A DNA stretch of 43,726 bases, from positions 1-43,726 of the forward strand of contig JAEUHH010000054.1 in NCBI GenBank assembly GCA_016795505.1, read 5' to 3'. Below the pieces are notes generated by a model, which worked only from the letters and a program-made list of their open reading frames with translations, did no database searches and had not been told where the DNA came from. Shown one piece after another: positions 30,131 through 42,083 of this stretch. Each line of letters begins with the position of its first letter. Position 1 is the stretch's first letter. The position numbers and the translations under genes were made by a program. The stretch comes from Verrucomicrobiales bacterium. Its GTDB lineage: Bacteria; Verrucomicrobiota; Verrucomicrobiia; Verrucomicrobiales; DEV007.

Positions 30131-33100
30131 TCAGGGAGCAACCACCAGCCATCCGGGTGTCAGCGTGACGCTGGACCCGGACCTGACGGAGGTGATGAAC
30201 AATCCACAGGCCGAACCGGGCTCGACGGCGTCGCCGGTGTCGTTCAGCCTCTCCTGCACCACGGCGCCATAGATGAGGCCTGCGCGTCCCGTGACCGGAT
30301 GGACGAATCGCCCGCTCAGCAGGCCAGACTTCGGCGCAAAGGTCAGCGTGACGGGATGGCTGAGGGATGCGCAGCCCAGAGCCACCATGTATTTGGCCTT
30401 CGGATCAACCGGCCTCACTCCGAGGGCTCCGGTCAGGTCGTTCGCATCAAAGAACAGGGCGTCGCCGACCTCGCCCTGCATGAGCCGGGCGGACAGCGAT
30501 GTGGCGTCGAGGATGGATGTCCCGGCGGCCGGCTCCCGGTAGAGCGAGCCTTCGGCCAGATAGGCGATGTCAGCCTGGCTGGAACTGAGGTGCATCAACT
30601 CGCCGCTCCACAGGAGCGATGGCGAGAAAGTCCCATCAGAAACCAAAGTTCCCACAAAGCTGTGAATACCACCCTTGATGACACCCATGACCGGCACGGA
30701 CTCGTCCGCGAAGGCGTAGGTGCTGGAACTGAACTTCTTGCCGTCGGCCAGTTGTCCTTTGAACGTGACAACACCGGTGTTGCGCGTGCCCGCCGCTGCA
30801 TAACCGTATTGGGTTTCTCCATCGACCTGGAGGCAGAACGTGTGTGCTCCAATCCAGGGATAGGGCGACAGACGCGACCAGCCGACCAGATCCAAAACGA
30901 ACGGCGCACCGGAAACATCGCCAGTCACCATATTCTCGGAAGCTTCTGCGAGGGTGAGGACCGCCGCCGGACCTGTCTTCGACGTCAAGGCCACGCCTGA
31001 CTGGGCCGATAGCAGGGTCACTCCCTTGGGCACCGAGTAGGCGTGTCCGCCGAAGATCAGCTTGCCGGTCAAAACGCCACGGGTGGACACTTTTGCACTG
31101 AAGTAGCCACTCGTCCCGTGAGTCGGGGTTTCGTGCCCCACCCGGCCGGCAAAAGCGCCGCCCATTTTCACAAACAGCGCCTCCACAGCCAGTCCGGGAT
31201 CGCCGGTGACGGTCAGGGGATTGCCGGAGCCAGCCGGGACACCGTTGACGGTCCATCCCCCGAAGCGGTAGCCCAGAGCGGCGTGGGCGGTGAAAGTAGT
31301 CGGAGAACCGGTGTAAACCGCCCCTCCGCCTGTCACGGTGCCGCCACCGGATTTCACCTTCGGGGTGATCTCGTAGGGATCGCCCACGACCACCTGCCTG
31401 ACGGACTGGGCTGTCTGCCCCCCTCCGTCAGTGACGCTGACCGTCACGGTGAATGGTCCGTCATGTGGGAAGACATGGCTCGGATTTACGGCTGTCTCGA
31501 CTGGAGAGCCATCACCGAAGTCCCAATCTGCCGAGTAGGGAGCCTTTCCGCCCTGGATCGTTTGGGAGAACTCAACCGTGCCTCCGCTCAAATTCTGGTG
31601 GGTGATGTCCACCGAGACCGGAGCCGTCGGAGGCACGAAGCTCACAACCAACCTGGGCCTTGCCGAGGAGGTTGCACTTTCACTGGTGTGGAAGTCGATG
31701 CCGTTGGTCCCAGCCAGGAAAGGTATGAAGACCACACCTTCGTTCGGCGCTCCATCGACCCAGGCCTGGACGGCGGCGGTGATGTCGATGCTGAGAGGAC
31801 CGATCGGAACATTGGCATTCGCATCGTTGGCCCCAAACGTCGCCAGAGGCTCAGCCACGGCCTCGACGTCGGCGGTCTGCACACCGCTGCTCAGGGAGTT
31901 CCACGTGCTGGCCTCGCTCCAGCCGGTCAGCATGCGATGCACCGTCATGCCGCTGCCGGGGTCCAGGATGGTCAGGGTCAGAGTTGCGCTGCCGACGACG
32001 CTGCCGGCGGGAATCTGGTTGGCGCCGGTGCCAATGAGATCGTCAAAGCGAAGCAGTCCCTGATTCGGCGCATTGCCGGGACTGCCATCATCACCATCGA
32101 CGCTGACATCGGGATCGTTTCCGTAGGCGGTATCGACCGCCGCGGAATCGCTCCGAATGTAGGTATCCTGAGTGCCGGTGTAACCATTCAGCCCCTGAAC
32201 CAGATCAACCGAGCCATTCGGCAGCGCGGTGAACGCCACGCGGGCCCTGGTGGAGACGCCGCCGTCGTTGTCAGTGGCCCGGGCCGTCACGGTGTATTGT
32301 CCGGGATTCACTCCCGACCAGGCAAACGTATGCGGGGCCGCGACCGTCTCACCAATTTTGGTCGTGCCGCTGAAGTACTCGACCTTGGCGATCTCTCCGT
32401 CCGTGTCAGCTGCATCGGCAACGAGAGATACCATGCCTCCCGGCACACTTGAGCCGGCCACCGGAGTGGTCAGGGCAATGGTGGGCGGCCCGTTCGAGGG
32501 ATTGGTCACGGTCACCGTCACGGGGGTGGAATCCGTCGCACCGCCCTGATTGTCGATGGCGCGGGCAAAGACCGTGTGCGTTCCGCTGATGGCAGGCCAG
32601 GCAAACTCATACGGCTCTGCCGCGGCCTGACCGATTAGAACGTCGTCGGCATAAAACTCAACCCGATCGATCGCCCCATCCGGATCCGTCGCCGTGGCGG
32701 CAAAGTCGACCGTGGCTGGCTTCGCAACCGCGCTCCCCGCCGTCGGGGCGTCAAGCGTGATGGTGGGCGCCTGATTGGCGGCGCTGGTGAAGCTACGGGG
32801 CGAGCTACCCAGGGAATTCGGTCCGTCGCTGACGGCCGCATACCACTCGTATTCGGTCTGCGGCTCCAGTCCGGTCCAGTCCAGCGTCGCAGTCGATTCA
32901 CCGGCCGAAACAGGCACCGTACCCAGCGGCACCCAAGGCACCGCGCCAGGGCCCATCTGGTAGGGAAGCACGAACTCACTGTCCGCGTCCGTCTCATACT
33001 GCCCGGTCGTGGTGCGATAGGTCTTGGCGGTGATCGTGTTGTTCGCCGGAGAGAACACGAAGTACCTCAGCCAAGACCCTCCCCCACCCTGTCCGTCGGT

Positions 33101-36100
33101 GCGGCTCTGGTAGTCCTGGAGGACGGTATGAACCGTGCGCCCCTCGAACGTATCCGCGCGCTGGCCTTCACCGTGGATATGGCCGCAGAGCATGAGGAAG
33201 AGGTTCGGGTTGTCCTTGAGGGCATCGTAGATAGCCTGCCCCTGGCCTCCCCAACTGGCGGGATTACCCGTTCCGATGAGCCAGTGGCTGGTCACGATGG
33301 CCCGGCGATCGGGATGGGCTTTCAACAACGCATCCGCCCAGTCCAGCACCGCCTGGCTGGCGGAGGAGCGATACTCGAGATTGACGATGATGAAGTCCAT
33401 CCCGCTGGCACTGAACAGTTGATAGTTGTTGTCATTGTTGACGCCGAAGTTGCCCCCGAAATAAGGGCGACCCGCCCAACGGGACACGCCGAAATACTGA
33501 TTCCAGTACAGGCTGGCCCCGTCGGGACTGCCTATCGGCTGCTGGTCGTGATTTCCCGGAGCGCCACCCCAGGGAATCCCGTGAGTGAGCAGGGTTGTCA
33601 GCGGATTCTCCAGAATGTCCATGGCGGAGTCGGCATTGATCCATTCCTGCTGCACGGCATCGCCATTCTGAACCATGTCACCCATGTGGGCCACGAACGC
33701 GATGTTGAGCGCATCCTTCTGACTGACGATCCAGTTGGTCTGCGACAGGAACTGCGGGAGGCGGTTGTTATTGTTCTCCGAATAGAACTGCGTGTCAGGA
33801 AGCGTGACCAGGGTGAAGTCCGGTCCGGGTGCGGTGGTCTTCCTTCTCCCGTAGAACGTCACATTCAGAGCCTGACTCTCGGGATCAGCCACGCCTGCCG
33901 TCAGCGTCACCTGCCCACCTGCGCCGGCACCGATCGCATCATCAGCCGGAGCCGTCAGTGAGATGGTGGGAGCCTGATTGACGACGACTTCAACCGAAAC
34001 CGGTTCGGAGATCGTGGTCGCCGTCATGTTATCCGTGGCCTTCGCGGTGAGCACATGCCCGCCGATCGGAGCACCCGTCCAGACGAACGCATGCGGAGCG
34101 GTCGTGGTCTGGCCCAGTTTGGTGGCTCCCGCGAAATACTCCACTTTCACCACGTCGCCGTCAGTGTCTGAAGCATCGACCGCGATCGCGATGTCGGTGC
34201 CGGAGAGAATCGTGGCATTCACTGCCGGAGAGGTGATGGCCACCGAGGGCGGAGTCGTCAGAGGGGCGAGCACCGTCAAGTTCACCGGCGATGAGGTCGC
34301 CGTGGCTCCGAAGTCATCCGTAGCCCTGGCCTTCAACACGTAACTGCCCTGAGAAAGCCCCGGCAGGGCGATCGCATAAGGCGCTTCCGCATCTTCGCCA
34401 ATCGGGACATTGTCCACGAGGAACTCGACCTTCGCCACATCTCCGTCGTCCGAGGCATCTGCCGTTACCATCAATGTGGCCGGTGCATTGACCGAGGTGT
34501 TGTCAGCCGGCGCCGTCAGGGTCACCGAAGGCGGATCGTTGACAATCAGGGACGCTCCTTCGATCCAGACCGGACCGCCAGTGAGCGTACCCGGAACGGT
34601 GCCGCTCGCGGTGTTGCCGATACCATCGTTCAGGCCAAATCGCCCTTTCAATCCAGGAGCGGAAAGAATTTCCAAGTCTTTGTTGGCGGCGATCTGAACT
34701 GCACTCCTTGCATGGTCCCACACGCGGACTTCATCGATCGCCCCGGCAAAGAAACCGGCGGGCGCCCCGGTGGATGTCATCGCCGTGGCGATGCCAAAGT
34801 GCTGGATGCTGTCGTAGCGCGGCAGTGTGCCGGCAGGAGCACTGGCGGTGCCGACCGCCACGCCGTCCAGATACATCGTCCAAACGCCGGTGGTCCCGTC
34901 ATAGGTGACCGCCGCGTGATACCACTGTCCGTTGACCACCGGCGTATTCGTCGCCGTGATTGGATAGTTTTGCCCATTCGTGAAGGCTTCGAAGTCCGCA
35001 GTCAGAAGGCCACCCGTGGTGAGTCCGAAGATGTAGTTGCAGTCAACATTGCTACCATCGCTCTCCCCCCTGCCTTTCGAAAAGAGAGGAACCACCGTGA
35101 CCCCGCCGCTTCCCGACGTGGTCGTCACGCCGACACCGTCTTTGCGAAACCAGCATTCCAATGTGAAGCCATTGCCGGACGGCCCTCCCGCTCCCAACTC
35201 CGGAGCGGCTCCCATGGTCACGTAGTCGTTCACTCCATCGAACTGCAAAGCCGTGTTGGCTGGAAGATTGCCCGGATCGAGCGTCACTGTCACCGCCACC
35301 GCCGCACTCGTGGTGGCATAGCCATCGTTGTCAGTCGCTTTGGCGGTGATCGCGTAGGTGCCCACCGACAAATTGGAAAGCGAGGCCTCATAGGGAGCCA
35401 GCGTATCCACACCGGCGGAGATTCCATTCACGAAGAACTCGACCTGCGTCACCGTTCCACCCGCTCCATCGCTCGCCGAAGCCTGAACGGTGACATTGGC
35501 CGGCGTGACGGTTGTAGTACCCGTCAAGGGCGATGTGATCTCCACCTCCGGCACAACTGGCGCCTCGAAGAAGGCGAAGCTGAACATGTCTTCCGCGGCA
35601 CTGGCGCCATCCTCCAGCACGGGCGCACCAGTGGTCGGGATGTCGCGACTCTCGATGATCCACCGACTGTTCGCCGAATCCCATTGGTAGGACACGATAT
35701 TATCCGAGTTGTTCGTGCCGCCACCCTCGGGGCTCACCATGAGAACTCCCGTCGAATGAGTCTGTCCCGGAATGGAAAGGTACCACTGACCCACGCCGCC
35801 TTTGGTCACCGTAAACGTCCCGCCAGTCACATCCGTGGTTCCGTCGCTGTTCACCCGTCCGACCGCCTTGAGCAACTTGGTCCCCACCGCCGATGCCGGC
35901 AGGTAAACAAATGCGATGGGATCCTGCTCGTTGGTCGTGCCGCTGACTCCATTGTCTCGCACAAACATGGAGAAAGAGCCATTCGCATTCGCCCGGCTGG
36001 CGGCGTAGTTGTCTTCGTTCTTCGCATGGTTGACCAGAAGAATCCCATTCTGCGACGTGTGCGAGGCATTGATCGAAGTCAGATTCAGGCCAAACACCCC

Positions 36101-36658
36101 GCTGCCGGCAGTGGTAAACTGGGTGCCCAAGTTGATCCCTGCGCTGGCGGTCAACGTGTTGGTGGTCCCACCATTGGTCCCCGTGCTGTTCCGTGCAAAG
36201 CCGGCCAGCCAGTCATTGTAGCGAAAATATACCGCCGCCACGTTGATATTGGCCTCAATGCTGTCGGTTCCCGGCAGTGCCAGGAACACCGGAATGTAAT
36301 ATCCGTTTCCCGAGAAATCGATGGCACTCGTGGCATAGAAAAGCCCGGTGGCACTGCCTTTCGCATCGTTGTTCCGACCATTCTCAGTGACAGCGGTCAT
36401 AAAAACCCCGTTGGCAAGGTCGTTCGCCGTACCCGCTGAGATGTAGTAGTCACCGCGATTGGTCGCAGAAGTCACCGAGAAATTCGGTGAGCTCCCGGCG
36501 GCCTTGGTGACGGAGACCGAGGTGGTGTTGTTGTTGGCGTCGTTTTGCACGACATCGATATTTCCAAACTCAGTGGCTTGGCCGAAGAGTCCCGACACGC
36601 TGGCGAGCAGCGCGGTCAGGACCGATAGCGTTGGCAGGTGTAGTTGACGCATTTTCAT
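30131..36658 (-). CDS. Giant secreted phosphoesterase/Ig/LamG protein
   Basis: A 2175-residue exported protein. A signal peptide (about 1-26) precedes a non-recognised region to about 365. Next come a bacterial Ig-like (Big_7-type) domain, a LamG-like domain (about 465-680, ALQFDGVNDYVTMG), three more Ig-like domains, and a calcineurin-type metallophosphoesterase (about 945-1230: DTQFYSE, HMGDMVQNG, GAPGNHDQQ, SHWLIG, GHIHGE). Two more Ig-like domains follow, then a DNRLRE-like beta domain (about 1480-1670), a PKD domain (WDFGDGSPVE), an InlB-like segment (GGWTVNGVP) and a C-terminal beta module from about 1826, shared with the protein at 37962. The phosphoesterase motifs are complete, so it may be active on surface phosphodiesters. 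TPR gene upstream, 22 bp apart. Confidence 0.85.
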   Translation of the reverse strand: MKMRQLHLPTLSVLTALLASVSGLFGQATEFGNIDVVQNDANNNTTSVSVTKAAGSSPNFSVTSATNRGDYYISAGTANDLANGVFMTAVTENGRNNDAKGSATGLFYATSAIDFSGNGYYIPVFLALPGTDSIEANINVAAVYFRYNDWLAGFARNSTGTNGGTTNTLTASAGINLGTQFTTAGSGVFGLNLTSINASHTSQNGILLVNHAKNEDNYAASRANANGSFSMFVRDNGVSGTTNEQDPIAFVYLPASAVGTKLLKAVGRVNSDGTTDVTGGTFTVTKGGVGQWYLSIPGQTHSTGVLMVSPEGGGTNNSDNIVSYQWDSANSRWIIESRDIPTTGAPVLEDGASAAEDMFSFAFFEAPVVPEVEITSPLTGTTTVTPANVTVQASASDGAGGTVTQVEFFVNGISAGVDTLAPYEASLSNLSVGTYAITAKATDNDGYATTSAAVAVTVTLDPGNLPANTALQFDGVNDYVTMGAAPELGAGGPSGNGFTLECWFRKDGVGVTTTSGSGGVTVVPLFSKGRGESDGSNVDCNYIFGLTTGGLLTADFEAFTNGQNYPITATNTPVVNGQWYHAAVTYDGTTGVWTMYLDGVAVGTASAPAGTLPRYDSIQHFGIATAMTSTGAPAGFFAGAIDEVRVWDHARSAVQIAANKDLEILSAPGLKGRFGLNDGIGNTASGTVPGTLTGGPVWIEGASLIVNDPPSVTLTAPADNTSVNAPATLMVTADASDDGDVAKVEFLVDNVPIGEDAEAPYAIALPGLSQGSYVLKARATDDFGATATSSPVNLTVLAPLTTPPSVAITSPAVNATILSGTDIAIAVDASDTDGDVVKVEYFAGATKLGQTTTAPHAFVWTGAPIGGHVLTAKATDNMTATTISEPVSVEVVVNQAPTISLTAPADDAIGAGAGGQVTLTAGVADPESQALNVTFYGRRKTTAPGPDFTLVTLPDTQFYSENNNNRLPQFLSQTNWIVSQKDALNIAFVAHMGDMVQNGDAVQQEWINADSAMDILENPLTTLLTHGIPWGGAPGNHDQQPIGSPDGASLYWNQYFGVSRWAGRPYFGGNFGVNNDNNYQLFSASGMDFIIVNLEYRSSASQAVLDWADALLKAHPDRRAIVTSHWLIGTGNPASWGGQGQAIYDALKDNPNLFLMLCGHIHGEGQRADTFEGRTVHTVLQDYQSRTDGQGGGGSWLRYFVFSPANNTITAKTYRTTTGQYETDADSEFVLPYQMGPGAVPWVPLGTVPVSAGESTATLDWTGLEPQTEYEWYAAVSDGPNSLGSSPRSFTSAANQAPTITLDAPTAGSAVAKPATVDFAATATDPDGAIDRVEFYADDVLIGQAAAEPYEFAWPAISGTHTVFARAIDNQGGATDSTPVTVTVTNPSNGPPTIALTTPVAGSSVPGGMVSLVADAADTDGEIAKVEYFSGTTKIGETVAAPHTFAWSGVNPGQYTVTARATDNDGGVSTRARVAFTALPNGSVDLVQGLNGYTGTQDTYIRSDSAAVDTAYGNDPDVSVDGDDGSPGNAPNQGLLRFDDLIGTGANQIPAGSVVGSATLTLTILDPGSGMTVHRMLTGWSEASTWNSLSSGVQTADVEAVAEPLATFGANDANANVPIGPLSIDITAAVQAWVDGAPNEGVVFIPFLAGTNGIDFHTSESATSSARPRLVVSFVPPTAPVSVDITHQNLSGGTVEFSQTIQGGKAPYSADWDFGDGSPVETAVNPSHVFPHDGPFTVTVSVTDGGGQTAQSVRQVVVGDPYEITPKVKSGGGTVTGGGAVYTGSPTTFTAHAALGYRFGGWTVNGVPAGSGNPLTVTGDPGLAVEALFVKMGGAFAGRVGHETPTHGTSGYFSAKVSTRGVLTGKLIFGGHAYSVPKGVTLLSAQSGVALTSKTGPAAVLTLAEASENMVTGDVSGAPFVLDLVGWSRLSPYPWIGAHTFCLQVDGETQYGYAAAGTRNTGVVTFKGQLADGKKFSSSTYAFADESVPVMGVIKGGIHSFVGTLVSDGTFSPSLLWSGELMHLSSSQADIAYLAEGSLYREPAAGTSILDATSLSARLMQGEVGDALFFDANDLTGALGVRPVDPKAKYMVALGCASLSHPVTLTFAPKSGLLSGRFVHPVTGRAGLIYGAVVQERLNDTGDAVEPGSACGLFITSVRSGSSVTLTPGWLVVAP

Positions 36659-36680: not shown

Positions 36681-37538
36681 TCAGGGAGCAGGCGCGGGTG
36701 CCGCAACCACCGGAGACAGGACGACTTCACCCAAGGCCCGCTGGGCATCCGCGAGCAGCGCAAGATTCTGGGGAGTGCCTCGCTCGAGATTCGGCAGAGA
36801 CTGCAACGCCGCCAGCAACTCGGACCAGGCTTTCTTGGAATCCGCCGGGCGGTCCGCCATTTCCAGAATCCTGGCCCGTTCAGCCAGCCAGGGCTCGGGC
36901 CGAGGCGCCTGCAACTTCAGGGCGTCCACCCGACGAAGAGCCGCATCCCACAATCCCGCAGCCCGCTCGATCTCCAGAACGGTTCGCAACAGTTCCGGAT
37001 CAGCCCCCACTTCACCGACGGCTTCATCCGCAAGTTGACTCGCCTCAAAGACCTCTCCCGCCGCCGCCACCGCGCGGATCTGATCGACGATGACATCGAT
37101 GGTGATCACCGGCATCAGCTTCCTCCCCCGGGTAAGATCGGCCACTGCGCCAACCGCATCAGACATCGCATACCGAAGGCGCCCTCTGGCCACCCAGGCT
37201 AGACCATCGCCCGGGCACTTATCCAAATGATCATCAAACGCCCTCCGGGCCGATTCCATCTGCCCCGCCTGCCACAGCGCCCTGCCTCGCAGGTAGCTGG
37301 TCCGATGGGCTTCGGGCTCGATCGATTCGACAATTTCAATCTCCGCAAGCGCCAGACGCCACTCCTCATGGTCAACATGCGCCCTAGCCAGTTCCAGATG
37401 GAGGGAGGGATTCTCAGGATCGGAGCGGAGTCGATCAACCAAAGCAGAAACCACATCGTGATAGGCTCCATGGCCGCTCCCGAGTTGGGGAAAGGACAAC
37501 AGACAAGCAAATAGCGAAGTGATGCAGAGAACCCTCAC
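36681..37538 (-). CDS. Secreted TPR-repeat protein
   Basis: A 285-residue exported protein. Residues 1-22 are a signal peptide (MRVLCITSLFACLLSFPQLGSG). From about 30 the chain is tetratricopeptide repeats: PSLHLELARAHVDHEEWRLALAEIEI, YLRGRALWQAGQMESARRAF and GLAWVARGRLRYAMSDAVGAV. TPRs bind partner proteins, and the 2175-residue secreted protein is encoded 22 bp downstream on the same strand, so they are probably co-made and may work together. The tail ends in an Ala/Pro run (VVAAPAPAP). No enzyme motif is present. A 13-bp palindrome sits 58 bp upstream. Confidence 0.85.
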   Translation of the reverse strand: MRVLCITSLFACLLSFPQLGSGHGAYHDVVSALVDRLRSDPENPSLHLELARAHVDHEEWRLALAEIEIVESIEPEAHRTSYLRGRALWQAGQMESARRAFDDHLDKCPGDGLAWVARGRLRYAMSDAVGAVADLTRGRKLMPVITIDVIVDQIRAVAAAGEVFEASQLADEAVGEVGADPELLRTVLEIERAAGLWDAALRRVDALKLQAPRPEPWLAERARILEMADRPADSKKAWSELLAALQSLPNLERGTPQNLALLADAQRALGEVVLSPVVAAPAPAP

Positions 37539-37961: not shown

Positions 37962-40900
37962 CTAATTTGCCCCCCATTCCACCGAGGCCCTCTCGCCAGC
38001 GGGGCCAGGATACTGGCCATAGGCCCGGTTCGCCTTGCGGAGGATGACGCCGGCATGGCGGATGATCGCGGGGCGGCCATTCACGACCGTTTGAAAGGCG
38101 CCGCTGTAAAACCCGTTCACCGGATCGATCCGCAGCGACATCGGCGGCGTCACCCGCGGGGTCACGATATGATTCGGCTCGAGGGTGAACACCCAATCGT
38201 CGGGCTCGGGCGCGTAAAGGCCGTCGCCAAAGATCATCCGGGCATTGTCGGAACCATTCGCGAGGTTCAGCACGCGCTCACCCACGGCGGGGCGCACGTG
38301 CAGGCAGGCTTCCAGGCCCACCGTGCCATCGATCGCCGCACCGACCTCCCAGTGCAGCGGGCCATCGACATCGGAGCCGGCGAGGTCGCGATGTTGCAGC
38401 CACCCGCTCAGCGAACCCGCACCCCGGTTGAGCAGGGCGAGCAGCGGCATTTCCCCCGCCGCGGACAGGCCGGAGGCGGCGGCAAAGGGCGTGCCATTCC
38501 CTGCCACTCCGGAAACGCTCACCGCCCCGGTGGTCGCAATGGTCATGATGCCATAGCCATGGGCCTGGGGCAGACCGCTCATCGCGACGGCCGGCAGCAC
38601 GAAGGGATAACGACCCGCCTGAGGCGCGGGATTGGTCCGGCTCCACGGCACCCGCTCCAGGCGGACGGTGGCATCCACGGCCGGCGTGAGCAGCGAGGCA
38701 TCGGCCTTGAGGGTGCCGGAAAGGCTGTCCCCCACTCCGGGCTGGTCCATGTCGAGTTCCAGCGTGAGCGGCGTAGTGCCCCGGCGCGCCAGGGCGAGCA
38801 CGCCACCATCGCCCGTGAGCGGATCAAAGACTCCCCGAAAACCCTGACGCACGCCTCCGAGCACCAGCACCCCGGAATAGGCTCCGGATGGCGCCAGTGT
38901 CAGGGAAAGGAGCGCACGGGTCGCATGATCGGCCACCGGCTCGGTGCCCAGGCCCCAGTAAACGCCCGCGGTTTTCGTGAACAGTGTGTCCACCACGATC
39001 GCCAGCCGCCGCGAGGTGCGGTTGCCGGAGGCATCGCGCGCCCAGATCGTGATCCACCAAGTACCCGCCGCCTGCGGGGTGCCGGTCAGCAGGCGCGTCC
39101 CGGCATTCCAGGACAGCCCCGGCGGCAGCGCCCCGCTGAGTCCCCATTCCGACGCGGGACCATTGGTGACGAGCGGAAAAAAGGACAGCCCGTTCGCCAC
39201 CGTGCCGCGGATGGTGTCGTGTTGAGCGATGGCGATGCGTCCCGGCTGGGCAGGCATCAGGGTCACGCGGCCGGCGGCGTCCGATCCGGGATAGTAGCCC
39301 ACCGCGCGGTTTTGCCGCCGCAGAAAGACCCCGCCGAAAGGCCGCCGGATCGCTTTCGGCCCGGAAAAGTCGAGAAAACTGCCGCCGAACAGGCCGTTTG
39401 CCGCCCGCGTCGCCATCACGATGCCACTGGCGCCGGGAAACAGCGCCCGGCTGGCGGCGTCGAGGGTGAAAAGACTGTCGCCCGGCGCGGGATCGATGTC
39501 GGCGGGGCCAAACAACGCCAGCGCATTGTCCGCCGCGTTCGCCACCGTCAGCAGCCGCTCGCCCACCACCGGCGTCGCATGCCGCGAGCCCACCAGCGGA
39601 GCCTGGCCGGTGAAACCGCCGGGATAGAGCGCCTCGGCGGCATTACCGGCTTTGTGCCAGTGAAAGGGGCCATGCGCATCGTTCGTGCCGTCGTTGCCGA
39701 GCGTGACGACTCCGCTCAGCCAGCCGCCCGCCGGATAGGGACGGCCGCAGACGAAAAAACGCCCGTCCCGTGTCACAGCGCCACTTTGCTTGATGGCTCG
39801 ACCATCGGGCAGTTGCAGCGAAAACACCGCCAGTCCCTTGGCCGGCACGGAAAGGTGCCCATAGCCTGACGCCTGAGGCAGGCCCGAGCCAGCCGTCGGC
39901 TCTAGTCCCAGCGTGAAAAGGCCGGCGTGGGGATTCGGCACGCCGGCCACCGCCCCCCCGACGACCGGTGAATCGAGCGCTCCCGCCTCGACGCTTCCCG
40001 TCACCGGTAGATCAGCATCGCTGAAATCAATCTCCAGCGTGACCACGAGCGGATCCAAGCCGGTCCGGGCGATCGGAGGAAGTGTAACCCGGCCCGCCGT
40101 GTCGCATTGCCCCGACAGATTGTAACGACGCAGGCCGTGGATCAGCACGCCGGTCAGGCGGAGCCGGGCATCGACCTGAAACGCCAGCAGGCCGCGCAGA
40201 TCATCATCCGTCGCCGCCGGAGCGAACAGCCCGGTGAACGCCGCCCCGCTGGCGATCGCAGCCGGCGCCGAGATCGTCGCCGAGATCTCCGCCGAGAAAG
40301 CCGACGGCGTCCCGTCGCGCAGTGCCCGAATTCGGTAGCGGTAAACCGAGCCCGGCTGGCCCGTGGCATCCACATGCTGGCGGGCATCGGCCGGCAGATT
40401 GACCAGGGTCGAAAAAGCCCCCGTTCCCGCTGCCCGCTGAATCTCAAAGCCGGTGTGATCCGCCCCGCTCATCGCCCAACTCATCGGCACGGTCGTCTGC
40501 GGTGTGTTGCGTTGGTAATCAAAACCCGTCGGTGCGCCCGGCGGAGCCACGGCGAACTCATACGCTCCGAGATCGACCCGGCCATTCACGACGCGGGCAT
40601 TCCCTGCGGCATCGGTTTCCCCCGAGGCGGCCACGAAGCCTGGATCGCCCCGATCGATCGGGTAGGCACCCGGCAGCAACGCGAAGTTTTCCGAGCCCAC
40701 GGGATCGGTGAGACCGGCCTGGCTTTCCACCGCCACCTGAAAAAACAAGCCGCCGTCGAGTTCATCCGGCACATTGGCGCCGGGATTGTAGTTCACATTC
40801 CGCCAGTAGAACTTCGCACCCGCCTGTCCTGCGGGATGGCAGTAAAGATTGTAGTCGAACACATTCCCGGTGTTCACCGTGAACGCATTGCCGATCATCA

Positions 40901-42083
40901 GCGACTGGGCGCCGGCGACGATCAGGTTGTGGGTGAACACGGAGTTCCGCACATCGTGCTGCAGCACGATCTCCCCGCTGTAGGTGGCGTCGGTGTCGTT
41001 CCGCCACAGCGTGTTGTGGGTGAAGGAGCAGTCTTCCACGTAGCCGCGGTTCGTGTCATAGCCGCCCGTGAAAATACCGCCCATGTGATTGAGCCACAGC
41101 ACATTGTCCCGCACCCGGATGCGGCTGGCCGCCCGACCGGCGTGCTCACTGGCGATCTCGATGCCGATGTTGCACCGGTGTACCCGGTTGCGCTCGATCA
41201 CGATGTCCGCGCCGCCATCGACATAGATCCCCGCCGCCGAGCGTCCGCCACCGTAGGCCGGGTTGGCGATCGTATCGATGTCGTGGACGAGATTGTCCGA
41301 GACCGTGCCGTTGCGCGCCCGGTCCAGCGCCGCATTGCCGATGGTGCCCTCGTAGCCGATCAGATCGATCCCGATGTTGTTGCAGTGGTGGACATGGTTC
41401 TCGCTGATCAGAAAGCCCGAGACATTCCCATTCAGCACCATCGCCTCGCTGTTTCCCAGCACCAGATCGCGCAACTCATTGCGCCGGATCGTCAGTTGGG
41501 TCACTCCGCCCGTCGTATCGCCGTAGCAGGCGATGCCGTGGGCATTGCCATTGTTGTGATTCGTCGCGATCGAGTGGATCAGGTTGTCCTCGATGGTGAG
41601 ATTCGCACAGGTGCCCGAGAGGTAGATGCCCGAGGGCGTGATGCTCTGGGTCGAGGTGCTGAAATTCCGGATCTCAAAGCCGCGAAACACCAGATGGCTG
41701 CATTGGTAGAATTCCACCAAAGCCGACGCGTTCGACGTGACCGTCAGCGTCGAACCGTCGATGACCGGCGACTCCCCTGCCGCCGCCTCGAACACCGCCG
41801 GACTGGCCAGCGAGCCGGCTTTGGCAAAAAAGCCCACCTGCTCCCGATAGACCCCGGTGCGCACCTTGATCGTCACCCCGGGAGCGATCGCATTCGCCGC
41901 CCGTTGCAGCGTCCGCCACGGAGCCAGCGCCGATCCTGAGGCGTTGTCATTGCCCGTCGGACTCACGTAGTAGTCAACCGCCCCCGCCAACCCGCCGCCC
42001 AGCAGCCACAGGCCGAGGAAAGCCGCCCCACACCGGCGGGGCAACCCGGCGAAGCGGGCGGGACTGTGGCTGAAACGGGACAT
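37962..42083 (-). CDS. Giant secreted parallel beta-helix protein with two C-terminal modules
   Basis: A 1373-residue exported protein. Residues 1-36 are a signal peptide. YYVSPTGNDNASGSALAPW (about 38-56) starts a DUF1565/right-handed beta-helix domain (to about 500) with recurring N-x-I/V-x-x-N and IYVDGG patterns, typical of polysaccharide lyases and hydrolases. Residues about 520-600 resemble a fibronectin- or Ig-like domain. Two copies of a large beta module follow, about 615-990 and 1040-1373, separated by a putative-Ig (LTGTPQAAG) domain. Both modules have a G-x-F-G-G/S-F segment and an RAVGYYPG or RAYGQYPG ending. Substrate is probably an extracellular glycan, with no catalytic residues assigned. 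The gene starts 245 bp from the divergent thioredoxin-like gene. Confidence 0.88.
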   Translation of the reverse strand: MSRFSHSPARFAGLPRRCGAAFLGLWLLGGGLAGAVDYYVSPTGNDNASGSALAPWRTLQRAANAIAPGVTIKVRTGVYREQVGFFAKAGSLASPAVFEAAAGESPVIDGSTLTVTSNASALVEFYQCSHLVFRGFEIRNFSTSTQSITPSGIYLSGTCANLTIEDNLIHSIATNHNNGNAHGIACYGDTTGGVTQLTIRRNELRDLVLGNSEAMVLNGNVSGFLISENHVHHCNNIGIDLIGYEGTIGNAALDRARNGTVSDNLVHDIDTIANPAYGGGRSAAGIYVDGGADIVIERNRVHRCNIGIEIASEHAGRAASRIRVRDNVLWLNHMGGIFTGGYDTNRGYVEDCSFTHNTLWRNDTDATYSGEIVLQHDVRNSVFTHNLIVAGAQSLMIGNAFTVNTGNVFDYNLYCHPAGQAGAKFYWRNVNYNPGANVPDELDGGLFFQVAVESQAGLTDPVGSENFALLPGAYPIDRGDPGFVAASGETDAAGNARVVNGRVDLGAYEFAVAPPGAPTGFDYQRNTPQTTVPMSWAMSGADHTGFEIQRAAGTGAFSTLVNLPADARQHVDATGQPGSVYRYRIRALRDGTPSAFSAEISATISAPAAIASGAAFTGLFAPAATDDDLRGLLAFQVDARLRLTGVLIHGLRRYNLSGQCDTAGRVTLPPIARTGLDPLVVTLEIDFSDADLPVTGSVEAGALDSPVVGGAVAGVPNPHAGLFTLGLEPTAGSGLPQASGYGHLSVPAKGLAVFSLQLPDGRAIKQSGAVTRDGRFFVCGRPYPAGGWLSGVVTLGNDGTNDAHGPFHWHKAGNAAEALYPGGFTGQAPLVGSRHATPVVGERLLTVANAADNALALFGPADIDPAPGDSLFTLDAASRALFPGASGIVMATRAANGLFGGSFLDFSGPKAIRRPFGGVFLRRQNRAVGYYPGSDAAGRVTLMPAQPGRIAIAQHDTIRGTVANGLSFFPLVTNGPASEWGLSGALPPGLSWNAGTRLLTGTPQAAGTWWITIWARDASGNRTSRRLAIVVDTLFTKTAGVYWGLGTEPVADHATRALLSLTLAPSGAYSGVLVLGGVRQGFRGVFDPLTGDGGVLALARRGTTPLTLELDMDQPGVGDSLSGTLKADASLLTPAVDATVRLERVPWSRTNPAPQAGRYPFVLPAVAMSGLPQAHGYGIMTIATTGAVSVSGVAGNGTPFAAASGLSAAGEMPLLALLNRGAGSLSGWLQHRDLAGSDVDGPLHWEVGAAIDGTVGLEACLHVRPAVGERVLNLANGSDNARMIFGDGLYAPEPDDWVFTLEPNHIVTPRVTPPMSLRIDPVNGFYSGAFQTVVNGRPAIIRHAGVILRKANRAYGQYPGPAGERASVEWGAN

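Follow-up and report, generated by a model that had tools for sequence, protein, structure and literature searches.

A folded three-unit beta module at the C-termini of giant Verrucomicrobiota proteins as a candidate surface sorting or retention domain

How very large, secreted-looking proteins of Verrucomicrobiota reach the cell surface and stay there is, to our knowledge, largely unknown. The window analyzed here, the whole stretch of 43,726 nucleotides from a Verrucomicrobiales bacterium (genome G000, 6.55 Mb, 96.6% complete), encodes two giant proteins sharing a module of ∼340 residues. The relevant features of the window are:

30131..36658, minus strand: protein A, 2175 aa, with a signal-peptide-like N-terminus, Big_7 Ig repeats, LamG, a phosphoesterase-like stretch, DNRLRE, PKD, an InlB-type repeat and the module
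about 30134..31168, minus strand: module copy A, C-terminal end of protein A (residues 1831–2168; E 3e-47, iterated profile)
36681..37538, minus strand: TPR-repeat ORF, 285 aa, between the giant genes A and B
37962..42083, minus strand: protein B, 1373 aa, with a right-handed beta-helix, choice-of-anchor Q, module B1, He_PIG and module B2
40554..40691, minus strand: choice-of-anchor Q domain of protein B (NF041518, 30.7 bits, cut-off 25; residues 465–510, upstream of both modules)
about 39219..40253, minus strand: module copy B1 of protein B (profile and BLASTP)
about 37965..38984, minus strand: module copy B2, C-terminal end of protein B (profile; AlphaFold2 pLDDT 77.7, pTM 0.80)
38646..38984, minus strand: B2 unit 1, predicted eight-strand barrel (top solved match HphA, 8gmm_A, Z 9.8)
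38295..38633, minus strand: B2 unit 2, predicted eight-strand barrel (top solved match fHbp chimera, 5nqp_B, Z 9.8)
37965..38282, minus strand: B2 unit 3, eight predicted strands at lower confidence, structural matches weak

The initial annotation had assigned one module to the 2175-residue protein and two to the 1373-residue protein, and pairwise comparison bore this out. BLASTP aligned B1 with B2 at 30% identity (E 1e-23) and copy A with B2 at 23% identity (E 3e-11), and a whole-protein run joined A to B1 (E 8e-5). Smith-Waterman scores of B1–B2, A–B2 and A–B1 were 35, 19 and 7 s.d. above those of residue shuffles (300 each), respectively. Judged by these alignments, the three window copies are homologous. 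The interval 37962–40230 proposed at the outset spans B1 and B2 but misses the copy in protein A, and the suggested ‘Y-x-P’ ending fits B1 and B2 whereas copy A ends differently. Pfam and NCBIfam models match the upstream domains of both proteins, not the module. The phosphoesterase-like stretch of protein A, which looks calcineurin-like by an unscored motif, is absent from the Pfam output, and NCBIfam gives only PRK11148 (E 0.028).

The three copies first counted proved to belong to a larger set: a profile of the three sequences gave 21 matches in the same genome, at about 20 places (protein C48 was matched twice through split halves, and two of the matches are truncated at contig ends). The profile approach also reached beyond the window proteins and beyond this species. 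Full scans with an 18-sequence profile yielded 28, 33, 22 and 54 matches in four Verrucomicrobiaceae genomes (family f3, same order as G000) and 18, 11 and 6 in three further genomes, counts that split matches may inflate slightly. At least one match was present in 25 of 288 genomes of the phylum and, with a wider profile, in 42 of 387 genomes of a second phylum sample; with five to seven candidates scored per genome, both figures describe presence, not copy number. The distribution is therefore patchy, yet extends beyond one family. A contig scan with a pattern from member A4 added 22 further loci, all from Verrucomicrobia, among them Brevifollis gellanilyticus, Prosthecobacter MAGs and a Spartobacteria MAG; the pattern is too narrow for this to establish that the module is confined to the phylum. 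In these searches the module was met only in Verrucomicrobiota; an IMG/VR scan and a tblastn search of plasmids returned no module match. No Pfam or NCBIfam model describes it and no family matched more than one of 27 members (E up to 0.1), no PDB sequence matched (E up to 1), and the open papers searched contained no description of it.

Several irregular members were observed. Several contig ends of G000 (C84, C83, C46, C75 and C92; loci L035, L036, L027, L022 and L191) lie inside near-identical copies of module-bearing or choice_anch_I genes, as do C46:25-384 and C75:25-384, and the family's repeats thus seem to break the assembly. Three profile matches, L011 (G000:C65:43106-44101), L064 (G234:C56) and G234:C11:12815-13780, each contain one in-frame stop (TGA, TAG, TAA); these may be decayed copies, stretches that run past the true end, or errors. 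Genomes of family f33 (G079, G083, G179, G191, G232, G252, G263, G266, G284 and others) mostly show one weak match each, mainly to units 1 and 2 and mostly in frames of 1.3–1.9 thousand residues, perhaps a separate subfamily that has no unit 3.

The module lies predominantly at the C-terminus. ORFs that are complete or almost so represent 89 module proteins; in 83 of them, against 7.4 expected under uniform placement, no more than 30 residues follow the module, and in 81 no more than 16. C-terminal placement holds even in proteins of 5–6 thousand residues. In the 22 further loci, tails measured 0–6 residues in all 28 profile rows. The six exceptions (L127, L133, L092, L023, L103, L105) continue for 126–471 residues. 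Two modules in one protein occur in three cases (window protein B, L024, L086), whereas two G000 proteins, L031 and L034, consist of little beyond a signal peptide and the module. Same-strand tandem pairs of module genes are frequent (L146, L147, L154, L167, L099, L135). The initial annotation's term ‘mobile’ was not supported if taken to mean an element that wanders: the module keeps a fixed C-terminal place and has been duplicated both inside proteins, as tandem pairs, and across the proteome. By a home-made rule, a signal-peptide-like start is present in 90 of the 104 module ORFs whose 5′ ends are complete, versus 207 of 417 neighbouring ORFs, many of which are probably spurious. The expected enrichment at the C-termini of largely exported-looking proteins was thus observed. 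A likewise home-made rule detected no lipobox in the 104 ORFs.

Ig-like or He_PIG domains often adjoin the module, He_PIG being present in 46 of 84 proteins. Within 520 aa upstream of the module, NCBIfam identified choice-of-anchor D, Q and I in 16, 2 and 1 of 84 proteins, respectively (raw counts), and M36 peptidase models designated by name as myxosortase-, rhombosortase- and T9SS-dependent in 5, 4 and 3 of 84. Going by the NCBI naming convention, choice-of-anchor domains presumably precede exchangeable C-terminal anchors.

PEP-CTERM resembles the module in being C-terminal, in having many copies per genome, and in following varied N-terminal domains in proteins that start with a signal peptide. 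It consists, however, of a motif, a transmembrane helix and a basic tail, whereas the module is a folded domain according to the models below. Direct reading of the C-termini of module proteins revealed no PEP-CTERM tail (PEP motif, transmembrane helix, basic cluster). Exosortase (PF09721) was found in 212 of 288 phylum genomes. No exosortase match was obtained in G000, so that the module occurs in a genome where exosortase is undetected, and PEP-CTERM (PF07589) gave 0 matches there while the other 10 of 11 tested genomes were positive. Of the other 24 genomes with the module in the 288-genome sample, 23 also carry exosortase, which speaks against a wholesale exchange of the two systems; replacement in those genomes would proceed protein by protein and not genome-wide.

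Homologous proteins can bear either ending, and so can genes located upstream of one particular gene cassette. The choice_anch_I family is present in 21 of 288 genomes. In G045, G260 and G134 the family member finishes with PEP-CTERM. In G190, G187, G199 and G000:C46 it finishes with the module, which G000:C92 also carries; for G190, G187 and G199 the module frames were paired across scans by contig and length. Other members have neither ending, lie in incomplete stretches, or have a misread frame (L190, L199, L200). A second case was reached through clustering of neighbouring genes and concerns the Verru_Chthon cassette, on which our literature search found no paper. Of 20 sites fetched, 7 have a gene with a PEP-CTERM ending just upstream of cassette protein A (TIGR02600), 62–249 bp away; of the other 13, one has no ORF, six have another gene at ≤288 bp and six have their longest ORF 432–2779 bp away. 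At five further sites the upstream gene ends in the module (G199:C5, G199:C3, G190:C2, G190:C9 and G187:C3, with G190:C2 and G187:C3 judged by coordinates only); these come from one genus and probably two gene lineages. Among eight giant genes of 5–6 thousand residues (G199, G190, G187, G234), four end in PEP-CTERM, four carry the module and none has both; one of the module-bearing four has its frame broken by a stop near the module end. As a separate observation, Verru_Chthon_A matches numbered 21 and 31 in G066 and G217, where the module was not detected, versus 3–6 in four module-rich f3 genomes, with some matches split, and the two systems look anti-correlated among these six f3 genomes.

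The module thus occupies the place that a short surface-sorting tag takes in other bacteria, and for this reason a sorting or anchoring role is probable. The choice-of-anchor context, the exchange between PEP-CTERM and module, and a genome in which neither exosortase nor PEP-CTERM was detected point the same way, and such a device would probably be of a new type. We propose, with a probability of about 0.6, that it is an exosortase-independent C-terminal surface sorting or retention domain of Verrucomicrobiota, in which a folded domain stands in for PEP-CTERM. The anchoring or secretion role put forward in the initial annotation gains support from the domain context and the apparent replacement. 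Some observations speak against this reading: six of 89 proteins run on past the module, a tag used once per protein would not be expected in the tandem pairs that several proteins show, the Ig-like domain choice_anch_D is common, and a single genus supplies all five cassette examples.

The protein would cross the inner membrane by means of its signal peptide, and the long Ig, beta-helix or enzyme region and the terminal module would fold in the periplasm. An envelope component may then recognize the barrel module non-covalently and carry the protein out, hold it at the surface, or both. We infer the surface location, the recognizing partner, the export route and the main role (anchor versus export). 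Type II-like export is a guess; followed by retention, it is plausible because all eight module-rich genomes carry several secretins (5–8 matches each). Clustering of 637 neighbouring ORFs from 97 loci revealed no recurrent outer-membrane translocon, which likewise counts against the sorting reading; the most frequent neighbour families were sulfatase-like (by sequence reading), ABC ATPase and others.

Structure prediction provided a further view of the module. With a 27-sequence alignment, AlphaFold2 modelled the Brevifollis copy at pLDDT 90.1 and pTM 0.88, with 23 listed strands of at least three residues plus short bridges, while window B2 has 24 listed strands whose predicted order matches. 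The early description of a shared beta module with matching strands is therefore consistent with the models, and the module is read as three successive units of eight strands; from its strand order, unit 3 would also close as a barrel. Profile comparison with hhalign identified units 1 and 2 as related repeats (E 2.9e-5; 0 of 60 column shuffles reached this score), units 1 and 3 have a hairpin in common (E 3.2e-4; 0 of 60), and a relation of units 2 and 3 was unsupported (E 0.076; 2 of 60 as high). Among 110 sequences the conserved positions are mostly glycines, with no conserved His/Cys set. Apart from glycines, conservation is strongest at aromatic or polar positions that cluster in unit 2, namely D150 (95%), W204 (95%), Y214 (84%), Y173 (76%), Y108 (68%) and K206 (68%).

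A cluster of this kind in unit 2 (D150, W204, Y214, Y173, K206) would suit a domain that binds surface polysaccharide or envelope glycan and retains the protein in a lectin-like manner, with export handled elsewhere, and the lectin propellers PLL and AFL appear low in the Foldseek list. The conserved aromatics may, however, form the barrel core, and no CBM family passed in 27 members, the one CBM_6 match having E 0.0087. We regard glycan binding as a doubtful, though still reasonable, alternative.

The structural neighbours suggest another possibility, namely that the barrels are a Slam/T11SS-like outer-membrane export signal, as proposed for TbpB, fHbp, HphA and NilC, acting via an as yet unrecognised translocon. 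The two top Foldseek matches were to TbpB (E 3.7e-5 and 6.3e-5); a viral structure library gave a weak lipocalin-like match (E 4.5e-4). The Brevifollis copy matched 1jju (Z 9.0), NHBA and fHbp (8.7) and HphA (8.0), and its unit 3 had a sole match, the C-terminal region of an arabinanase (Z 5.3). Window B2 matched HphA and fHbp at 9.8, with further values of 9.5 and 9.3 and with 1jju (8.4) and nitrobindin (6.6) below; for its units 1 and 2 the top seven rows are all Slam-cargo-type proteins (HphA, fHbp, NHBA; Z 8.8–9.8). Across the predicted models, units 1 and 2 resemble NHBA, fHbp and HphA as eight-stranded meander barrels at modest Z of 8.7–9.8. T11SS cargo is described as variable N-terminal domains followed by a C-terminal eight-stranded barrel (PMC12282271, PMC9100927), the barrels being proposed targeting domains (PMC12282271, PMC9100927, PMC8560813). 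The module likewise combines C-terminal eight-strand barrel units with variable N-terminal partners. However, the meander barrel is a widespread arrangement, and Z values of 8–10 are modest; Slam cargo has one barrel per lobe whereas the module has three units in a row, the third weakly matched; and neither a lipobox nor a sequence family match was detected for module proteins, neither the TbpB barrel nor any other cargo-barrel Pfam family matching in 27 members (E up to 0.1). Slam itself (DUF560, PF04575) was not detected in G000 and six of the seven other module-rich genomes, which weighs against a sorting role through this machinery as well. The remaining genome, G187, gave a partial Slam/SlipAM match (L168, G187:C1:1071258-1071767; 24.4 bits versus a 22-bit cut-off) in a 535-aa frame, and the sensitivity of the search rests on this match because none of 14 control genomes matched. 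The resemblance is one of fold only, and a Slam-like signal seems unlikely to us.

The domain was also compared with other C-terminal sorting systems. The T9SS C-terminal sorting domain is folded and beta-rich and is found on large modular secreted proteins. The module shares these traits but is about 340 residues long, compared with the 72 model positions of TIGR04183. Searches with TIGR04183 and SprA_N gave no support for T9SS membership: the one TIGR04183 hit in G000 scored 18.7 bits, below the cut-off of 23, none of 27 module members matched, and G234 had one match of 23.4 bits; SprA (PF14349) had 0 matches in 10 genomes and likewise 0 in the controls. An autotransporter (type V) beta-domain was rejected, as no such family was found in 27 members and the predicted folds divide into three units of eight strands each instead of forming a single 12-strand barrel. 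GlyGly-CTERM, handled by rhombosortase, sorts T2SS cargo to the surface in Vibrio (PMC13393428), and MYXO-CTERM with myxosortase is a C-terminal surface-sorting tag (PMC11980579). Both are C-terminal like the module, but they are short processed tails, whereas the module is folded and has no such tail.

An all-beta domain so often located beside Ig-like and He_PIG domains could instead be a folding cap that stabilizes long beta-rich proteins against proteolysis and has no part in sorting. We consider this improbable: such a cap would not explain the exchange with PEP-CTERM in homologous proteins, and L031 and L034 present the module with a signal peptide alone. That the module has no sorting function and serves as an enzyme or in ligand uptake is highly improbable, as it sits on very many different proteins per genome with mostly glycine conservation and no conserved His/Cys set, even though it lies away from the C-terminus in six proteins and T11SS hemophores of related fold bind heme, though through their N-terminal parts (PMC8560813).

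The sorting or retention reading might tentatively be taken further, in that the triple-barrel domain would mark the substrates of a new Verrucomicrobiota export-and-retention pathway, independent of exosortase, T9SS and Slam, serving dozens of giant proteins per cell and involving a putative outer-membrane partner. A folded C-terminal mark singles out dozens of candidate substrates in each genome and offers a testable handle for finding the export or anchoring machinery. A model of the module would let annotators label many proteins whose C-termini are blank in current family models, and the module may explain how giant surface proteins are accommodated in a genome that has no detectable exosortase.
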